NCBI GenBank assembly: GCA_002077065.1
Contig: NAJO01000037.1
Coordinates: 416,424-480,423, forward strand
Source of the DNA: Cryoendolithus antarcticus
Taxonomy: Eukaryota; Ascomycota; Dothideomycetes; Cladosporiales; Cladosporiaceae
Direction of reading: 5' to 3'
Length of the DNA: 64,000 nt
The notes beneath the pieces were generated by a model. That model searched no databases. It was not told where the DNA came from and worked only from the letters and a program-made list of their open reading frames with translations. A program made the position numbers and the translations under genes. Numbering within the stretch: the stretch's first letter is position 1; every line of letters starts with the position of its first letter. This document shows, piece after piece, positions 1,298 to 17,658 of the stretch.

Positions 1298-2053
1298 CTA
1301 CCCCGTTCCCTGCCTCCCCAGACCCCTAATCCCCAATCCCCGTGCCCCCAACTCCCGCCGCCCCGTCGGCACATACCCCTCCTCTTTCCCTACCCTTCTG
1401 CCTCGTGCTCTCGGTCTCATCCGCCGCTCAGTCGTCCGATCTTCATTCTTCCGTCGCTCACCCGTGCGAAAGTCCCGCCTCAACACCCGTCGTAGCCACC
1501 CCTTCAACCTCTGGACCCGGCTCGGTCTTTCAGGCTCGGGCTCAAGAGGCCGCCATGCAAATTCAGGGGGATGTGGATGGAAGAAATGCGGAAACGACTC
1601 CGTAGTACTGCTTCGAGTCGGCGAAGGTGTGGGGTTCCCGGCTCTCGCAATAGGCGAAGCCGGCGGTAGGTCGTCAGGCGTAGGGACCCGGGTGCCTGGG
1701 TGAGGATCAAGTGCTGAAGGAGGGTCAGAAGGGGATGATCTCAGTGCAACATTATCCGAGTCCTCGACTGACGTAGCGCTGTGAGAGACAGGGAGATGCA
1801 GCGTTGATAGCCGGTGTGGGTCCGTCGCCCGCCGGGGTTCAATCGTCGTGCCGTCGACGTCCTGGCTGTAGACCGAGGATGTCCGTCTAGCTAGTGGTGT
1901 TGGCGCTGCTGGACAGGACATCGGACTTGCTAAGAGGAAAGGGAAGGGAATCATGAGTACACAGGGAAGAAGGAGAAGCAGATGCGAGGACCTAGGATCT
2001 GCAATCCCTAGAAAGCTCACCGTATCGATCGGGGGCACAGGTGCTTGCTGCAT
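1298..2053 (-). CDS. Hypothetical Arg/Pro-rich protein (doubtful)
   Basis: This is an uninterrupted frame of 251 codons from an ATG at 2053. A second ATG at 1954 would give about 218 residues. The N-terminus holds a hydrophobic Leu-rich run (LLLLLPCVLM), which could be a signal sequence if the first ATG is used. The middle is rich in Ser, Pro and Thr, with a run of short aromatic/proline motifs (HFFHPHPPEFAW), and the C-terminal third is strongly basic with many Arg residues (RLKGWLRRVLRRDF). I recognise no family. It lies just downstream of the branching-enzyme gene on the same strand. Only frame length and protein-like composition support it, and it could be a chance open frame in GC-rich DNA. 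Confidence 0.3.
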   Translation of the reverse strand: MQQAPVPPIDTVSFLGIADPRSSHLLLLLPCVLMIPFPFLLASPMSCPAAPTPLARRTSSVYSQDVDGTTIEPRRATDPHRLSTLHLPVSHSATSVEDSDNVALRSSPSDPPSALDPHPGTRVPTPDDLPPASPIARAGNPTPSPTRSSTTESFPHFFHPHPPEFAWRPLEPEPERPSRVQRLKGWLRRVLRRDFRTGERRKNEDRTTERRMRPRARGRRVGKEEGYVPTGRRELGARGLGIRGLGRQGTG

Positions 2054-2338
2054 CGTGCGAATTGATCGAAGGAAGATTGATGGTGAGATGGAGATGGTGA
2101 TGAGATCGAAGCGGGTGGGAGTTAAATCTATCTAGGTGAGTCGCTTCCGCCCTGCGTCAGTGGTAGCACGTTGCTTATGTCGCTTTTTAGACTCTTTGGC
2201 ATGTGTGCAGTGCACCTCCATCCGACTCCGAAAGCGCCAAATTCGCTTCCAGCGAAAGCTTTGTGACAGTCTGGCGATCCCCGGCGTCCGCTACCTCTCC
2301 AATCCGTCGATATCCCATAACAAGGGCTTTTCAGCTTT

Positions 2339-4543
2339 TCAAATGGTCTGTTCGAGCGCGAGTACCTATTCGCAAGTCAGCAATCCAGTTCTGTTACACC
2401 TCGTCACCAGGCTACTCACGATCGCCGTCCGCGTAGGTATATAAACCTGCACGAAATTCTTCCTCTCATTCCACTTGAAGTCCGTCGTGAAGAACCTTCC
2501 ATCATTCTTAACCCTGCCCAATCCCCCGAACTCCGGATCATCAGAATTCAGCACGATTTTGTAAGTCCCAGCCTGCTCAACACCGACCCTGTAATCCGTG
2601 AAAGAGCTGCTAGGATGGAAATTGAAAATCCACAGCAACCCCGCACGCTCAAACACAATGACTTTGTCGCTCTCGTTCTTGAGTGAGATGTAGGCCTGCG
2701 GGCTGTGCAGCCATCCGTACTTCTCCTCCGTCCACTGCATCTTGCTGTCGAACTCGTTGAGGAACTTGTACCGCAGTAGCGAGTCGTCGGGGAGATTGAA
2801 CTGTCGACGAGCGTAGTGGAAACTATTCCCATTGCCTTCTCGCGGAAAGTCCAGCCACTCCGGGTGTCCGAACTCATTGCCCTCGAAATTTAGGTACCCC
2901 TCGCCACCGAGAGCGTGCGTGATGAGTCGGATCATCTTATGCAGCGCCATGCCGCGTTCAATGACGGGTGTAAATTCCGAGAGCGTCGACATGTTAGTGT
3001 ACATCTGCGCGTCGCACAGCCAGAACAGCAGCGTCTTGTCGCCCACAAGCGCCTGGTCATGGGACTCAGCGTACGCAATAGTTTTCTCGCCGTGTCTGCG
3101 ATTCGTCAAGGTGTGGCAAAGAGCGCCCATGTCCCAGTCGATATCCTGCTTCTCCTTCAGCCACTTGATGTACAGATCCGGAATCGCCATGGCTAGTCTG
3201 TAGTCGAATCCTATTCCACCCAAACTGAGCGCTACACAGAGCGCGGGCATACCCGAGACGTCCTCCGCGATGGTGATGCAGGAGGGGTACAAATTATGCA
3301 GCATCTCGTTGGCGATCATGAGGTACACAACGCCGTCTTCGTCGACATCCGGGCCGTAGTACTCGTGGTAGCCTCCTGAAAAGCCTGTGCCGATGCCGTG
3401 ATGGGTGTAGAGCATGGAGGTGACGCCGTCGAAGCGGAAACCGTCGAAGTTGTATTCTTCCATCCAGAAGCGCAGGTTGGAGAGCAGGAAACGGAGAACC
3501 TCGTGGTTGCCGTAGTTGAATAGTCGGGAGTCCCAGAGCTCGTGTCTCCCGCGCGCGCCTTCGTGAAAGTACAGGTGATCGGAGTTATCGAAGTAGTTCA
3601 GGCCGTCGTGGACGTTCTTGCTGGCGTGGGAGTGCACCACATCCAGCAGCACTGTGATACCGAGGCCGTGGGCAGTGTCTATGAGCTCTTTGAGCTCGTC
3701 GGGGAAGCCGTAGCGGCTGGAGGCGGCAAAGAAGGAGTTAATTTGGTAGCCGAAGGAGGCGTAGTAGGCGTGCTCCATGATGGCCATGAGCTGGATGGTG
3801 TTGTAGCCGAGGTGCTTGATTCGGGGGAGGACATTCTTGGTAAATTCACTGTAAGTTGCGACTTTAGGGTCTGGGCTGCTGATACCGACGTGGGCTTCGT
3901 AAATTCGGGCGCTGGCGGGCTTGGGTGGACGAGGATTCTTGAACTTGTACTTCTGTGGTGGGTTCCAGAATCGTGCGTCGTAGATGGGGCTGATGTTCAG
4001 GTCTTGTGTCACACGCTTGATCCAGACGGGGATCCTCTCTGCTCTTTGCCCATCATTCGGCACCACCATGCTGATCTTGACTTTGCTGTCGTGTGCGATT
4101 GCTGGTTGGCCGTTGTGAGGTGGCAGTACGATCTCCCATACGCCGAAGTCATCTCTCTTCATCTCATGGCTGTCGCGGTTCCAGCCGTTGAAGTCGCCGA
4201 TGAGGTATGCTCGCATGGCATTGGGCGCCCATTCGCGGTATGTGATGGTGCCGTCGGAGGCGATATTGAAGCCATAGCGCTCATAGCCGCGTGAGAACTT
4301 CTCCAGGCCACCTTCGCTGTTGTCGATGTCGTTGATCCATTTCTGTGCTTTCGAGAAGCGTGATCGCAATTGTGGCTTGAAGGGTTCGAGGTATCCGTCA
4401 AGTTGGACGACGCCTGTGGGTTGTCAGTGACTGCTTTCTCCATCAATAATGTGGTCTTACTGACCAGTGCCATCGTTGGCGACTTTGTTGTCCGAGGGCG
4501 CGGACTGGACGCTGTTGTCTGAGGACTGGTTAAGCTTGTCCAT
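2339..4543 (-). CDS. GLC3: 1,4-alpha-glucan branching enzyme
   Basis: This enzyme makes the alpha-1,6 branches of glycogen in the cytosol by cutting an alpha-1,4 chain and transferring it (GH13, EC 2.4.1.18). I read three exons: 4465-4543, 2420-4413 and 2339-2365, with introns of 51 and 54 nt that have GTCAGT and GTGAGT donors. The product is 699 residues, close to the roughly 700 usual for fungi. Order of domains: a short Ser/Asn-rich start, CBM48 ([20 protein letters not shown]), the TIM-barrel with GFRFDGV (nucleophile Asp near 355), IAEDVSGMP (acid/base Glu near 410) and AESHDQ (transition-state His/Asp), then an all-beta C-terminal domain. The last nine-codon exon gives the family-typical end [12 protein letters not shown] single-exon reading would run past the donor at 2419 and add an unrelated tail. 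It is transcribed divergently from the ClpX gene across 653 bp. Confidence 0.96.
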
Positions 4544-5196
4544 GTTTGCGGTGCTCGTTTACTGCAGTCAGCGTGTACGTTCGCACAAGCCAGGCGGAAA
4601 AGGTTGGTCAAGCAGGACTAGAAAGAGCGGAAGACTGAATGATCCTTCAGACTGGGTCCCTACCGTGAGCCGACCAGGTATATACACAGCAAACACTTGA
4701 TCGCCCTCTACTAGACGGAAATGTTTGGTGGGGCAGATATGACATCGCGCTGGGGAAGCTCCATGCATTGGGTTCAGCGACAATCCTGGAGGGGTCTCAC
4801 TCCGCATATCAAAGGCCCGACTCGACTGGCATTGATCTTCGCTACAGTCCTCGGCGGACGTGTAGGCCTTCGTAATACTCTCCATGGTGTCTGTCGTAGG
4901 ACGCGCGTGATGAAGCGGTAGGATACCTGCACCTCCGACGCGCCTCCCAAAGGTTGATGGCGCCGTCGTACACGAAACAACAATGCAGGGGCCCGAGCGC
5001 TGAGTCCTCTGCTTTCTTGCCCGATCGGGATCGTAGGTGGGTCTTCGATATGAGGCGGGGAAGGTGCGATTCATGTAAGTGAATGTGATGTAGACAGCAG
5101 CATTGTATGCCATCAGCTCGGCTTTGGAGATCATTGGAGACTCCTTAGGCGCTAAGCTCACGATGCCAGACTAGCTTATACCATTCAATCCTCAGC
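4544..5196. promoter_or_regulatory. Divergent promoter region, GLC3 / MCX1
   Basis: This 653-bp stretch separates the start codons of two genes that run away from each other, so it must carry both promoters and 5' UTRs. A 197-codon open frame on the minus strand (4568-5161) has no recognisable domain and overlaps this region; I treat it as chance. I cannot name individual binding sites. Confidence 0.6.
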
Positions 5197-7137
5197 ATGG
5201 CGACTCTCACGACCAGCTTCTCCCCGCAAGCTCGCCTGACCTACGTTGGCCTTTACTCATTGTTCCATCGCCCACGGCGACGTCTCACCACTTCTACTCG
5301 CCACCATGACCAGGACAATTATCGCCGCAGCGACTTCACCTCCCACGGCTTCACCGGCTACTACGACCCCGCCGCTCCCACCGAAGGCCCTCTCCGCGAC
5401 GCCTCAAACATCGGCGCCCCGCGCATAACCCCCAAACTTCTCGCCGCACATCTAGACCAATTCGTTGTCGGGCAGGAACGTGCTAAACGCACTCTCGCAA
5501 CAGCAGTCTACAACCACTACCAACGAATCCAGGAACTGCAACGGCGAGATGAGGAAGACGAGGAGCGGGCTGCTCAAGAGGAGAGGCGGAGTCATATGCA
5601 TCGGCATCCGGTTGAAGGTAGGGAAGTGGAGTTGAAGCGCGGGATTGTGGTGCCTTCGCTGACTAGAGGCGGGGATCAAGATGAGTTCCCTGGACAGCAG
5701 GCGACGGTGACGTTTAGTGCTTGGGCGGGGGCGGAGCAGAGGGGTCAGCAATCGCAGCAGCAATATCCAAGGGAGGAAGCGAGACCGCAGCCGCCACCGC
5801 CGATATTGGATCACAGCCCCTTGACTATAGAGAAGAGTAATGTCTTGTTACTCGGGCCTTCCGGCGTGGGCAAGACTTTGATGGCTAAGACTCTGGCAAG
5901 AGTGCTAGAAGTGCCTTTCAGCATGTCAGATTGCACGCCCTTCACGCAAGCCGGCTACATAGGCGAAGACGCCGAAGTGTGCGTGCAACGGCTCCTAGCC
6001 ACGGCAAATTACGATGTTGCGAAGGCAGAACGCGGCATCATCTGTCTCGATGAAATCGATAAGATCGCCACAGCCAAAGTGAGCCACGGTAAAGACGTCA
6101 GTGGCGAGGGAGTACAGCAGGCTTTGCTGAAGATCATAGAGGGGACGACATTACAGATCCAAGCGAAGCAGGAACGCAACAGCGGTGGACCCGCAAGCAA
6201 CAGCAGCAAATCAAGCAGTCAAGGCTATGGTCCGACGAACAGCCCCCTCTCCCCCGGCAACATTTCACAATCAAGTAACTCCTCCACCGCTCCGCAGAAA
6301 GGCGAAGTCTACAACGTCAAAACGGATAACATCCTCTTCATCTGCGCCGGCGCGTTCAACGGCCTGCACAAAGTGATCCTTGACCGCGTGAGCAAAGGCT
6401 CGATGGGGTTCGGGGCGTCGATCCGCTCCCGTCCTTCCTCTTCCACCTCATCTCACCACGAAACGATCCTGGAAGGCGAAGACGAGCTCTTCGAAACGCA
6501 TCTTCCCTACTACACACCGCCTTCTTCCCAATCCGCAGACCCTGCAACAGGTAAGCCAGTAAAACGGACATTCAACACTCTCGACCTCGTGCAGCCTCAA
6601 GACTTGCAATCTTTCGGCCTCATCCCCGAGCTCGTCGGACGCATCCCGCTTTCCGTCGCGCTGAGCAGCTTGGACACCGCAGCGCTGGTGAAAGTTCTCA
6701 CGGAGCCGAGGAATTCGCTTTTGAAGCAGTATGAGCAATTGTTCCACCTAAGCAGTATCGAGCTACGGGTCACAACCTCAGCCCTCCACGCCATCGCCTC
6801 CAGTGCCTCCAAAATGGGCACAGGTGCCCGCGCGCTTCGCACAGTCATGGAACGCCTCCTCGCCGAGCCGATGTTCGAAGCGCCTGGCTCGGGGATCCGC
6901 TATGTAGTCGTTACTGAGGCTGTGGCGCTGAAGAAGGCTGGCGCGATTTACTTCGGTCGCGGACAGCAGGGGGAAGTGGCGAGGGTTGTGGCGGAGGAGG
7001 AAGAGGAGTGGGAGAGACGGCAGGCCAAGGAACGAGGGGAAAGTGAGTGGGAGGGACGGGCAAGGCATAATAGTGAGGGTGGGGCCGCGAGGACGTTTGA
7101 GGAGTATAGGGTCAAGGCGAGTGCGGGGGGGTATTGA
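5197..7137 (+). CDS. MCX1: Mitochondrial ClpX-type AAA+ unfoldase
   Basis: This is a single-exon gene of 646 codons. It encodes a mitochondrial matrix AAA+ unfoldase that remodels protein substrates; in yeast the homologue is Mcx1, which helps activate haem synthesis. The first 35 or so residues are rich in Arg, Ser and Thr and lack acidic residues, which fits a mitochondrial presequence. Visible motifs are Walker A GPSGVGKT (220-227), the pore-loop GYIGED (253-258), Walker B IICLDEID (281-288), the second pore region near SMGFGAS, the arginine-finger region LVGRIPL, and sensor 2 [12 protein letters not shown]. The N-terminal zinc-binding domain of bacterial ClpX is absent, as in fungal homologues. 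Two low-complexity inserts are present: residues about 110-205 (Glu/Arg/Gln-rich) between the first helix and Walker A, and about 326-368 (Ser/Asn/Gly-rich). No ClpP partner is encoded nearby. Confidence 0.93.
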
Positions 7138-14438: not shown

Positions 14439-15999
14439 ATGGAAGCGCCAGAAACGCCCGACGCTGGGCCCAGCTTCTCCCCTCCCAATCTACCACCCGG
14501 CTGGTGCGTTCGCAGTCCTACCTCTTCATCGCACTTGCGATTATGCAAAGATCAACGGGCTTGGCACTGACGATGTGAATGTAAAGGATCGCGCAGTGGG
14601 ACGCCAAGTGAGTGACGATCGGTGTTTGACTGCGCCTCGGAGCATCCATGATCTATCTTGACACCCAACGCTCTGTCATTGAACGACTTACTGACATTCT
14701 GGTGGCAAAGATCGGAGAAGTACTACTACGTTCAAATCAGCACCGGCGAATCCACCTGGGACACGCCTACCACTGCTGCACCGCAAGTCCCTACGCCTGG
14801 AAGTACGCCTGCGCCGGTGATGTCGAATCCGTATGGGACGCCGGATCAGAATGGGCAAGGTGGGCCTGGAGGTGCGGGGGAGTCGGACAGGAGTCTGGGG
14901 GTGAGTTCGCTTTGAAGTGAAGTGAAGTGTGTGTACGGCTTCGCTGACGGAGAGGTACCAGGGCTCGCTCATGAACATGGCTATGGGCAAGCAATCTGGA
15001 TCGCAGTCGCAGGGTGGCCTTGTTGGTGGATTGGCTTCGCAGTTTCTGGGTGGAGGCAGCAATAGCGGGCATGGCGGCAGTAGCTCATCCTCTGGACTTG
15101 GTGGGATCGCACAGTCGTTCCTGGGTGGTGGGAGCAAGCCGCAGCAACAGCAAGGTCATGGGCAGAGTCAGAGCTACGGGCAAAGCCAGAGCTACGGGCA
15201 GAGTCAATCGCACAGTAGCAGTGGCGGTAGCGGCGGTGGCCTCATCGGCTCGCTTGCCGGCGGTCTGCTGGGCGGCCACAACAAGCCACCTTCTGGGGGC
15301 TACGGGTACTCTTCGAACGGCAACTCGAGCGGGACGTACACTGGGACTGCACCGCCAACGTCTTACCAGCAGAGCTACCAAGCTCAGTCTGGCCAGTACA
15401 ATGCACCGAGCGGGCAGCAGTCCTACGGCGCTCCTACACCACACCACGACTCGAGCTACAGCTCCCAGCCTCAGCACCAGCAACCACAACATCAACAACT
15501 CCAACATCAGCAATCCTACGGTACACCACAACAACAACCCTACGGCCAATCAGCTCCCTACGGTCAGCCCTCTCCAAACCCCACACCAGGCGCCTATGGC
15601 TCGGCACACCAGCCTCCGCACGACCAATACCAATCCCACACGCCAAACTACGATCAATACAATCAGCCTCCCCAGCAACAGCAAGGCGGCTATCAAGCTT
15701 TCAACCCTCAGCACGGCCAATACCCACCTCCCGCTCCGCAAGGGCAAGGCTACGGCGGGTACGATCAAGGTGGTCAGTATGGGCAACCGCAAGGCGGCTA
15801 CGGTGGGCCTCCACAGCAGCAAGGTGGCTATGGCGGACAGCAGGGCGGATATGTGCAGCAGCCGCCACCACAGCAGAGCGGAGGCTACCCCGGGGCGGGG
15901 AGTCAGCACGATCAAGGGCACTCTGGGTTCCCGGGGGCTGGGAGTCATCATGCGCAGGCGGGGCAGGGGTATGGAGGGGCGCCGAACCCGGGGTGGTGA
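14439..15999 (+). CDS. WW-domain protein with prion-like Gln/Gly/Tyr tail
   Basis: Four exons (14439-14503, 14587-14607, 14711-14900, 14962-15999) give 437 residues. The second exon is only 21 nt and lies inside the WW domain. Joined, the domain reads [20 protein letters not shown] followed by [11 protein letters not shown] (residues about 17-48), with both signature Trp residues and the closing Pro. WW domains bind proline-rich PPxY-type ligands. The remaining 370 residues are low complexity: two similar amphipathic Gly/Leu/Phe stretches ([18 protein letters not shown]), SYGQSQ repeats near 15170-15215, a Gln/His-rich block and a Gly/Tyr/Gln block resembling FUS-type assembly domains. I do not recognise a specific function. 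The domain is certain; a role in RNA granules or as a WW adaptor is only a guess from composition. Confidence 0.85.
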
Positions 16000-16483: not shown

Positions 16484-17658
16484 ATGGCCGAGATCGCGGG
16501 CCTAGTAATTGGCGGCGTCGCCCTCGCCGGCCTCGTCGATTCTTCTCTGAATCTCATATCCCGCGTCAACACTGGCCGAGCGTTCAAATCAGCCTATCAA
16601 GATGCCGCGCTCGAGATCACCATGCTCGGTGCCCGCCTAGCCCGCTGGGAGAAGACGTATCGCGCACATCCAGACCCTAACGCCACGGCCGAGCAAGGCG
16701 ATCTAGCGGAGTCGTGGCTGCTGACCATAAAAGCGCGTTTACAAGACGCGTACGAAATCGGGAGGTCTTATGAGTGGGAGGGTAGGGTTGGGAGTGGCGC
16801 TGGGGAGGCCAGCGATATAAGTAGTCAGCAGTCAGCGGGCAGAGCTGCAGTGGTCGACAAATCTCGCCTCACAGACAAAGTCCGCACCGCAGTCGAGAAA
16901 TTCCGCTCCCCTGGTTTAAGCCAAGAAGTCACGCTCGCAGACCGCACGAAATGGGCCCTAGCAGACTCCGACAAAATGAACGAGCTAGTTCTAAAAATCT
17001 CCCGCCTAGTAAGCAACATCGAGCAGATCTTCCCCTCGCTCGAGCCTGCTCTTCGCGCCGCTACGAAAGCAGAAGCCGCCGCCATCCAGCCTTCGGCGAT
17101 CGACGAGCCGGAAGAAGCGATTCAGGAAGTGCACAAGGCGGCTGCGAAAGTGGATGCAAGACTAGGCTACATTTTGCAAGATTTAGAGGCGTATGACAAT
17201 ACCGTGCTGCATGTGGGCGATAACATTGATAGCAGCTTTGCAGGTGGGAAGGAGGGAAGCTCGATAAGCATGCGTAACTTAAAAGCGGGTGGCAATTCTA
17301 ATGTGAGGATTGGGTCAAATTACAATGCCGGGTCGTACGACATCGGGGGAAACGAGTTCTTTGGGGGCCCGCGCAGACCCCCACCAGGTGGTGGTAAGTC
17401 GTGATCCTATCTTCTCGATGTCAGACATATCTGCTGACAGGACTAGGGCAAGGTGGCGGTGGGTCGCAAGGCGGTGGTTCTGGTGGCTCAGGAGGGAACG
17501 AAATGTCCGGTGGCGGGTCCAAACCACCTCGAGGTGGCGGTGGTAAGTTGTGATCTCCTCCGCGTCGGAAAGATCTGCTGACTAAGGCATTAGGGCGAGG
17601 TGGCGATGGTGGGCAAGGCGGTGCTTCTGGCGGCTCAGGCAGCAATGTGAAGCGGTAG
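16484..17658 (+). CDS. HeLo-domain protein with HET-s-like amyloid motif
   Basis: I read three exons, 16484-17393, 17447-17542 and 17594-17658, giving 356 residues. The N-terminus (MAEIAGLVIGGVALAGLVDS) and the following RVNTGRAFKSAYQDAALEIT match the start of fungal HeLo (prion-inhibition and propagation) domains: a hydrophobic first helix, then helices with LGARLARWEKTY and TKWALADSDKMNELVLKISR. HeLo domains insert into membranes and cause cell death once triggered. After the helical part come two related short segments, VLHVGDNIDSS (about residue 240) and NSNVRIGSNYNAG (about 271), like the repeated Asn/Gly-rich beta-arches of HET-s amyloid signalling motifs. A Gly-rich tail encoded partly by duplicated exons follows. 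No NLR partner gene is adjacent. The upstream 100 bp are pyrimidine-rich. Domain assignment is by pattern; cell-death function is inferred. Confidence 0.72.
17394..17658 (+). repeat. Duplicated intron-exon unit in the HeLo gene tail
   Basis: The two introns (17394-17446 and 17543-17593) share their donor region (GTAAGTYGTGATC), the branch region (ATCTGCTGAC) and the TAG end. The exons after them begin with nearly the same Gly-codon run (17447-17490 and 17594-17637). This is a tandem duplication of a whole intron-exon unit of about 150 bp, with the phase-1 boundaries preserved. Confidence 0.8.

Follow-up and report, generated by a model that had tools for sequence, protein, structure and literature searches.

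The HeLo-HRAM gene occupies positions 16484..17658 on the forward strand of the window (the whole stretch of 64,000 nucleotides analysed here, on contig C81 of the Cryoendolithus antarcticus assembly) and is predicted to encode a protein of 356 aa in three exons, whose GT-AG junctions were inferred from genomic DNA rather than RNA data. Exon 1 (16484..17393, +) is an open reading frame of 303 complete codons plus one base. The initial annotation placed a HeLo domain in the N-terminal 200 residues, and Pfam agrees: PF14479 matches residues 6–202 (16499..17089, +), scoring 73.2 bits where the cut-off is 23.2, and beyond HeLo no Pfam family lies above its cut-off in the exon 1 protein. A family profile built from six sequences (A1) matched the HET-s HeLo structures in the PDB by sequence comparison only, best 2wvn at E 3.7e-19, and it also matched a separate PDB entry, the HET-s(218-289) fibril 2kj3, at E 0.027. 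Residues 1–26 (16484..16561, +) form a hydrophobic N-terminal helix that is a candidate membrane-inserting segment; in the profile alignment they align with the N-terminus of the HET-s HeLo domain. A search of 5.8 billion protein sequences returned five relatives at E ≤0.001, the closest being P0001 from Rachicladosporium sp. CCFEE 5018 (91%), followed by P0002 (62%) and P0003 (59%), both from Oleoguttula sp. CCFEE 5521, and two others with 41% and 30% identity to the window protein.

Two short related segments that had been noticed just after the HeLo domain (residues 241–251 and 271–283) turn out to be the ends of two complete 21-residue HRAM repeats, r1 (residues 227–247, 17162..17224, +; LGYILQDLEAYDNTVLHVGDN) and r2 (residues 259–279, 17258..17320, +; SSISMRNLKAGGNSNVRIGSN), which are separated by a loop of 11 residues (17225..17257, +) delimited by the sequence pattern. 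HRAM repeats are described as having hydrophobic residues at positions 5, 8, 10, 16 and 18 and Gly at position 19, with an inter-repeat loop of 6–18 residues in 154 of 155 cases (PMC4518210). Both window repeats have a hydrophobic residue or Ala at positions 5, 8, 10, 16 and 18 and Gly at 19 (position 10 is Ala in both, so the pattern holds only if Ala is counted as hydrophobic), and the loop falls inside the 6–18 range. The double pattern occurs in none of the 524 other stop-free stretches of at least 60 aa in the window (61,668 aa) and in one of 20,000 shuffles of residues 204–303, and is not due to chance. A third match, a single one at residues 75–95 inside HeLo, is of a kind expected by chance, since the control stretches yield 26 single matches and 1,047 of the 20,000 shuffles contain one.

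A second line of evidence for both repeats comes from a profile made from eight C-termini (those of the window protein, its homoeologue, P0002–P0005, and the proteins of two further HeLo genes on contigs C64 and C76). Among 177,635 PDB sequences this profile placed two HET-s fibril sequences at the top (E 0.012 and 0.014, the next being 1.5), and its alignment to the HET-s fibril spans both repeats and the YGGK end. Taken absolutely, E values of 0.012–0.027 for the fibril are weak, but by these comparisons both halves of the protein point to one known protein, HET-s. The structure modelling that had been suggested gave the expected order of elements at low confidence: an AlphaFold2 run with six sequences (mean pLDDT 40.8, used only for helix and strand order) has a helix at 5–26 and, after the helical N-terminal part, two strands in each repeat (230–236 and 241–246 in r1, 262–268 and 273–278 in r2).

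Several features set the repeats apart from those of HET-s itself. The canonical HET-s model PF11558 (PMC4518210) is absent from the window protein at E up to 10, and there is no Asn at positions 3 and 20 (Y/D in r1, I/S in r2), the Asn positions of the HET-s repeats that are numbered 1 and 18 in PMC3321046. Arg or Lys at position 15, described as a preference and not as invariant in HRAM (PMC4518210), is absent, the window repeats having Val and Asn there. Position 9 is an E/K pair, with E in one repeat and K in the other; positions 4, 6, 7, 11, 12 and 13, at which charge complementarity between repeats is reported as significant (PMC4518210), form only Q/R, D/N and D/G pairs. Judged by the missing PF11558 match and the replaced Asn, the motif of the window protein is not canonical HET-s. 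There is some likeness to HRAM3, which rests on one descriptive sentence in PMC4518210 and not on the published profile: the hydrophobic pattern, Gly19 and the Gly-containing loop are shared, and position 3 is His in P0003 r1 and in each repeat of P0004 and P0005, whereas position 3 of the window protein is Tyr/Ile.

An NLR gene is adjacent to 98 of 155 HRAM effector genes (PMC4518210). The initial annotation saw no NLR within the window, and we also found none: the 25 other non-overlapping open reading frames of at least 200 aa in the window contain no NACHT, NB-ARC, ankyrin, TPR or WD match (Pfam, E 1e-5), and they encode a class-III aminotransferase, tubulin, RNA polymerase Rpb2, PUF repeats, a helicase, an MFS transporter and others. 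Contig C81 as a whole has none of the at least 26 NACHT and at least 10 NB-ARC matches listed for the assembly searched (46,965,068 bases in 149 contigs); the receptors on C92 and C4 described below are missing from these lists of matches. Just upstream of the HeLo gene, at 14652..15999 (+), a WW domain matches weakly (E 0.0087, under the cut-off); after it comes a long Gln/Gly/Tyr/Pro-rich open reading frame that has no Pfam family.

A search of the genome for NLRs with the motif at their N-termini, which had been proposed as a check, did give candidates. An HMM of 14 repeats, taken from HeLo proteins only and including the window's own, was run on six frames of 45 records: 36 NACHT/NB-ARC loci, each extended by 1,500 flanking bases (26 + 10 rows, a few of the places being entered under both families), eight HeLo loci and the window. 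Apart from HeLo genes, only two of the 36 loci passed the inclusion threshold, L017 on C95 (1.2e-4) and L019 on C63 (2.4e-4). This HMM contains the window repeats, and its score on the window therefore proves nothing. When it was rebuilt without the window and orthologues, L017 and L019 were the best non-training sequences among 4,569 stretches (12.5 and 11.9 bits, domain score), and the full-sequence E values were 0.011 for L007 (the homoeologue), 0.027 for L017, 0.036 for L019 and 0.89 for the window. In both loci a single copy of the motif, r0 (MSQQPSSGGVHVNNLNAGGNAQVHVGDVHNHHEG in C95), lies in a short N-terminal exon just before the NACHT exon, and the C95 gene model of 978 aa contains NACHT/NPHP3_N and ankyrin repeats. 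Receptor-side motifs are described as poor in charged residues (PMC4518210); one of the 21 residues of the C95 r0 is charged, and the range across 11 r0 is 1 to 5.

The r0 is kept in P0006 (66% identity, 69% query coverage), an NLR of an Oleoguttula species in which two executor relatives also occur, and in P0007 (B0A48_07897 of Cryoendolithus antarcticus), the N-terminus of which equals our reading of C63; among the 120 relatives listed (of 740), the remaining 118 have no match below E 1 with either HMM. The C63 copy (L046) has an in-frame stop after intron 2 where C95 has CAA, so only one receptor copy looks intact, and the C63 copy may be broken or lost, or spliced differently. The neighbours of the receptor gene, identified by eye, are acyl-CoA dehydrogenase-like and agmatinase-like, and there are no HeLo matches within the 10 kb read around it. 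Executor genes (C81 and C83, the contig of the homoeologue) and receptor genes (C95 and C63) are on four different contigs, and whichever two are paired, the distance is about 206 kb or more, even with contig ends joined in the closest way. Because the receptor is unlinked, the pairing of executor and receptor rests on 21 residues. Nonetheless, the suggestion that the gene might be an orphan does not stand up well; given a homoeologous pair of NACHT-ankyrin receptor genes with one N-terminal motif copy on other contigs, and the purifying selection described below, the window executor is unlikely to be an orphan. Nor does the partner have to lie next door, as it was a genome-wide search for a 21-residue motif that gave the candidates.

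Whole-genome searches with three r0 peptides gave 4, 11 and 11 matches (E up to 0.126, with every candidate scored), the union of which is 14 loci; a reversed r0 peptide gave no genome match, but none of its candidates reached scoring, which makes it a weak control. We read 11 of the 14 loci (all except C65:263139, C59:707712 and C59:922328), and two of these are the NACHT-ankyrin genes on C95 and C63. On C92 (L056, C92:133258, +) the r0-like N-terminus belongs to a TPR protein in which a split P-loop-like stretch was seen by eye; in the exon scanned, Pfam found TPR and did not find NB-ARC. In four loci r0 stands directly before ankyrin repeats: L055 (C128:1202928, +), L057 (C147:25171, −), L058 (C57:861226, +) and L059 (C113:39662, +). 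Pfam found no nucleotide-binding domain in the whole C128 gene model; the annotated protein of the C147 gene (P0126) has none, its precomputed domains being all of ankyrin type; in C57, where the ankyrin repeats were assigned by similarity, no NACHT or NB-ARC was seen in the 1.6 kb read; and in C113 Pfam found no nucleotide-binding domain in the 1.6 kb read. In both C57 and C113 later exons could hold one. The r0 of C57 and C113 differ by 14 synonymous and 2 nonsynonymous changes and are thus evidently translated and kept. Those of C128 and C147, with 7 synonymous and 12 nonsynonymous differences (pS 0.42, pN 0.23), are under weaker constraint than the C57/C113 pair. The database model P0126 leaves out r0, so a survey restricted to annotated proteins can overlook the r0-ankyrin class, and P0127, an Oleoguttula relative of the C147 gene, is likewise annotated without r0; these annotations give no support for conservation of r0 in Oleoguttula ankyrin proteins.

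The remaining four r0-like N-termini precede an open reading frame without a Pfam family over cut-off: L060 (C65:264995, −), L061 (C65:43841, −), L062 (C59:703990, +) and L063 (C59:705856, +). In three of the four, r0 is followed by RDSYGNVTNLYQ (RDVNGNITNFYQ in L061) and then by the open reading frame. The C65/C59 r0 differ by 2 and 2 changes, too few to judge constraint.

Among the other HeLo genes of the genome, the C64/C76 pair is like the window gene in having HeLo followed by r1 and r2, and the C64 r2 begins with the same SSIS stretch; unlike the window protein, the C64 and C76 proteins stop right after r2 and have no tail. Among the matches listed there is no NACHT or NB-ARC on the C64 and C76 contigs, and no NLR-like open reading frame was noticed within ~5 kb. 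For a pairwise comparison of 21-mers with BLOSUM62 we took the r0 of four of the 11 loci read (C95, C63, C128 and C92). The C95 r0 scores 30–46 against the C81/C83 repeats and 29–35 against those of the other HeLo-HRAM pair, and the C63 r0 scores 24–41 and 18–20, respectively. The C128 r0 scores 52/48 against r2 of C64/C76 and at most 34 against the window repeats; the C92 r0, which is closest to r2 of the C64/C76 proteins, scores 35/39 and at most 19. These scores modestly favour C95/C63 as partners of the window repeats and C128/C92 as partners of C64/C76; the contrasts are modest and serve as a lead only.

The C4 locus (L051, about 1692–5361) has a HeLo executor like that of the window, but with the receptor-like gene adjacent, in divergent orientation (the textbook layout), and with a different type of motif. 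In the receptor-like gene AAA_22 exceeds its cut-off, NB-ARC falls short of its own (18.5 of 23.5 bits), and TPR repeats are also present. The C-terminus of the C4 HeLo protein carries an NQ-G-Q-type stretch, which we take to resemble a sigma motif. A counterpart lies between the HeLo and receptor genes (local score 36); an unrelated stretch in the same 10 kb scores 35, so the shared motif is only suggestive. The neighbour layout thus seems to be present in this genome for another motif. On C51 (L052), HeLo and NB-ARC matches that contain stops are found a short distance apart.

The reading that best explains these observations as a whole, to which we would give a probability of about 0.78, is that the window gene encodes a HET-S-type cell-death executor that would be templated by the r0 of a receptor and would attack membranes through its HeLo domain. 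The parts themselves, their conservation and the matching motif are observations of this analysis, and they bear out the initial annotation in seeing a HeLo executor with a HET-s-type amyloid motif in two copies (PF14479, the repeat pattern with its controls, and the fibril profile match). The course of events would follow the NWD2/HET-S paradigm as described in PMC4344463 and PMC4518210: a ligand would bind the ankyrin repeats and the receptor would oligomerise, its r0 motifs would stack into a beta-solenoid seed, and the seed would template r1 and r2 of the executor, whose HeLo domain would then refold, expose the hydrophobic N-terminal helix, enter the membrane and kill the cell. With HET-S/NWD2 of Podospora anserina (HRAM1) the window system shares a HeLo domain followed by two 21-residue repeats, a NACHT receptor with a single N-terminal repeat, and the profile matches of the window family to both HET-s structures. 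It is unlike HET-S/NWD2 in that the receptor is unlinked and has ankyrin instead of WD repeats, and in that the executor has no Asn at 3/20, has extra Gly-rich exons and is undetected by PF11558. Unlinked receptor and effector genes have already been discussed (PMC9815663, PMC7889193), and PMC4344463 mentions ankyrin-repeat homologues of NWD2. A HET-S-type cell-death pathway would in this way be placed in an Antarctic endolithic black fungus.

C95 is our candidate for the main partner, and other r0-like loci could serve as well. It is possible, though we lean against it, that there is no single cognate NLR and that the executor is served by a shared pool of r0-bearing sensors in a many-to-one network. 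There are 14 r0-like loci against four double-motif HeLo genes seen in the genome; a mean ratio of 5.7:1 between NLR-side and effector-side motifs is reported for one HRAM class (PMC9815663); the C57/C113 r0 are kept, and the r0 of C65b has the top score among the 11 r0 with the HeLo-repeat HMM, outscoring that of C95 (28.6 against 23.0 bits). On the other hand, the pairing scores separate two sets, the C128 and C92 r0 fitting r2 of C64/C76 better than the window repeats, and PMC7889193 reports an absence of cross-seeding among the HET-S, HELLF and HELLP prions. A more speculative version, which we rate lower still, puts the executor at the centre of a dispersed amyloid network with some sensors that would have no nucleotide-binding domain: the ankyrin-repeat proteins of C128, C147, C57 and C113, and a further set (the C65 and C59 arrays) with r0 ahead of an unknown domain. 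These sensors would then seed HeLo executors, or competitively block them, without a NOD oligomerisation step. In the literature searched (titles and the beginnings of abstracts, with subscription papers and supplements outside the search) we found no report of r0 on ankyrin proteins without a nucleotide-binding domain. If such proteins work, it becomes testable whether amyloid signalling needs NOD-driven oligomerisation, or whether repeat proteins can seed or restrain it directly.

The window protein could instead be an allorecognition factor, a HET-S-like incompatibility protein triggered by a self-propagating prion state rather than an output of an immune receptor, and its architecture is indeed the same as that of HET-S. 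In the profile alignment it has Ala where the HET-s chain has the Pro of a GRPF stretch, which we take to be position 33. A change at position 33 of HET-s is reported to abolish pore formation (PMC4344463); the aligned residue of the window protein is not Pro, and its HeLo domain is therefore of the killing type in that respect, a point that counts for the main executor reading as well. However, PMC4344463 treats the [Het-s]/HET-S incompatibility as an apparent peculiarity of Podospora that arose out of the NLR pathway, and a receptor r0 is present in the genome, which makes this alternative improbable.

Whether the executor is alive can be judged from its homoeologue on C83; the two copies each lie beside the same aminotransferase gene, and since many of the genes we inspected have a diverged counterpart on a second contig, the genome behaves as a duplicated one. 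Between C81 and C83, dN/dS is 0.11 for exon 1, 0.123 for HeLo (0.46 in its variable stretch 100–125) and 0.075 for r1, loop and r2 together; r1 alone has 0.19 (3 nonsynonymous and 4 synonymous changes), and r2 has no nonsynonymous change against 6 synonymous ones. The segment after r2 has 0.50 (5 nonsynonymous and 3 synonymous changes). The double repeat is thus under purifying selection between the homoeologues: the switch is kept and the sequence after it drifts. Such selection argues against a dead executor, and that the gene is a decaying leftover, an orphan HeLo gene with a drifting C-terminus and relic repeats, we consider very unlikely. That view could draw on the absence of an NLR from the window, the drift after r2, P0003 of Oleoguttula, in which a recognisable end of r2 is missing, a receptor copy that may be broken, and the C83 stretch that aligns with exon 2, in which a comparison by eye shows a changed acceptor and a TGA; against it stand the low dN/dS of HeLo and repeats, the unchanged r2 protein sequence and the matching r0 both in this genome and in Oleoguttula. 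Least credible of all is coincidence, that is, low-complexity Asn/Gly segments in a HeLo protein of some other function such as RNA binding through its Gly-rich tail, for although that tail is Gly-rich with a few Arg and confidence in the AlphaFold model is low over its whole length, the pattern controls, the fibril profile match and the r0 in receptors speak against it.

The long Gly-rich tail that had been noticed after the motif is real, but the gene end first assigned, 17393, merely closes exon 1, and two more exons follow. The segment directly after r2 (17321..17392, +; YNAGSYDIGGNEFFGG...) contains aromatic residues and di-glycines, and a short segment of this kind, often with aromatics and di-Gly, is normal for HRAM proteins (PMC4518210). 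The window protein then continues into the tail, with predicted GT-AG introns at 17394..17446 and 17543..17593 (+), and predicted tail units in exon 2 (17447..17542, +) and exon 3 (17594..17658, +, with the stop codon). The initial description of the gene as unusually organised accordingly applies to the extra Gly-rich exons, the only unusual part of its organisation, and not to the post-r2 segment or to the unlinked receptor. P0004 and P0005, more distant relatives, end soon after r2, and P0002 has a short Gly-rich tail that ends NAKR where the window protein ends NVKR; together with the diverged tail of the homoeologue, these ends indicate that the tail is a lineage-specific addition. The tail may perhaps be a solubilising or spacer appendage and probably lies outside the amyloid switch. 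We disfavour it as a functional domain in view of the post-r2 dN/dS, which is based on few changes, the divergence of the homoeologue tail and the early ends of P0004 and P0005. Finally, positions 17394–17658 consist of two similar intron-exon units, with introns that start gtaagt.gtgatc and exons that start GGC, and they have the look of a tandem duplication of a single unit.
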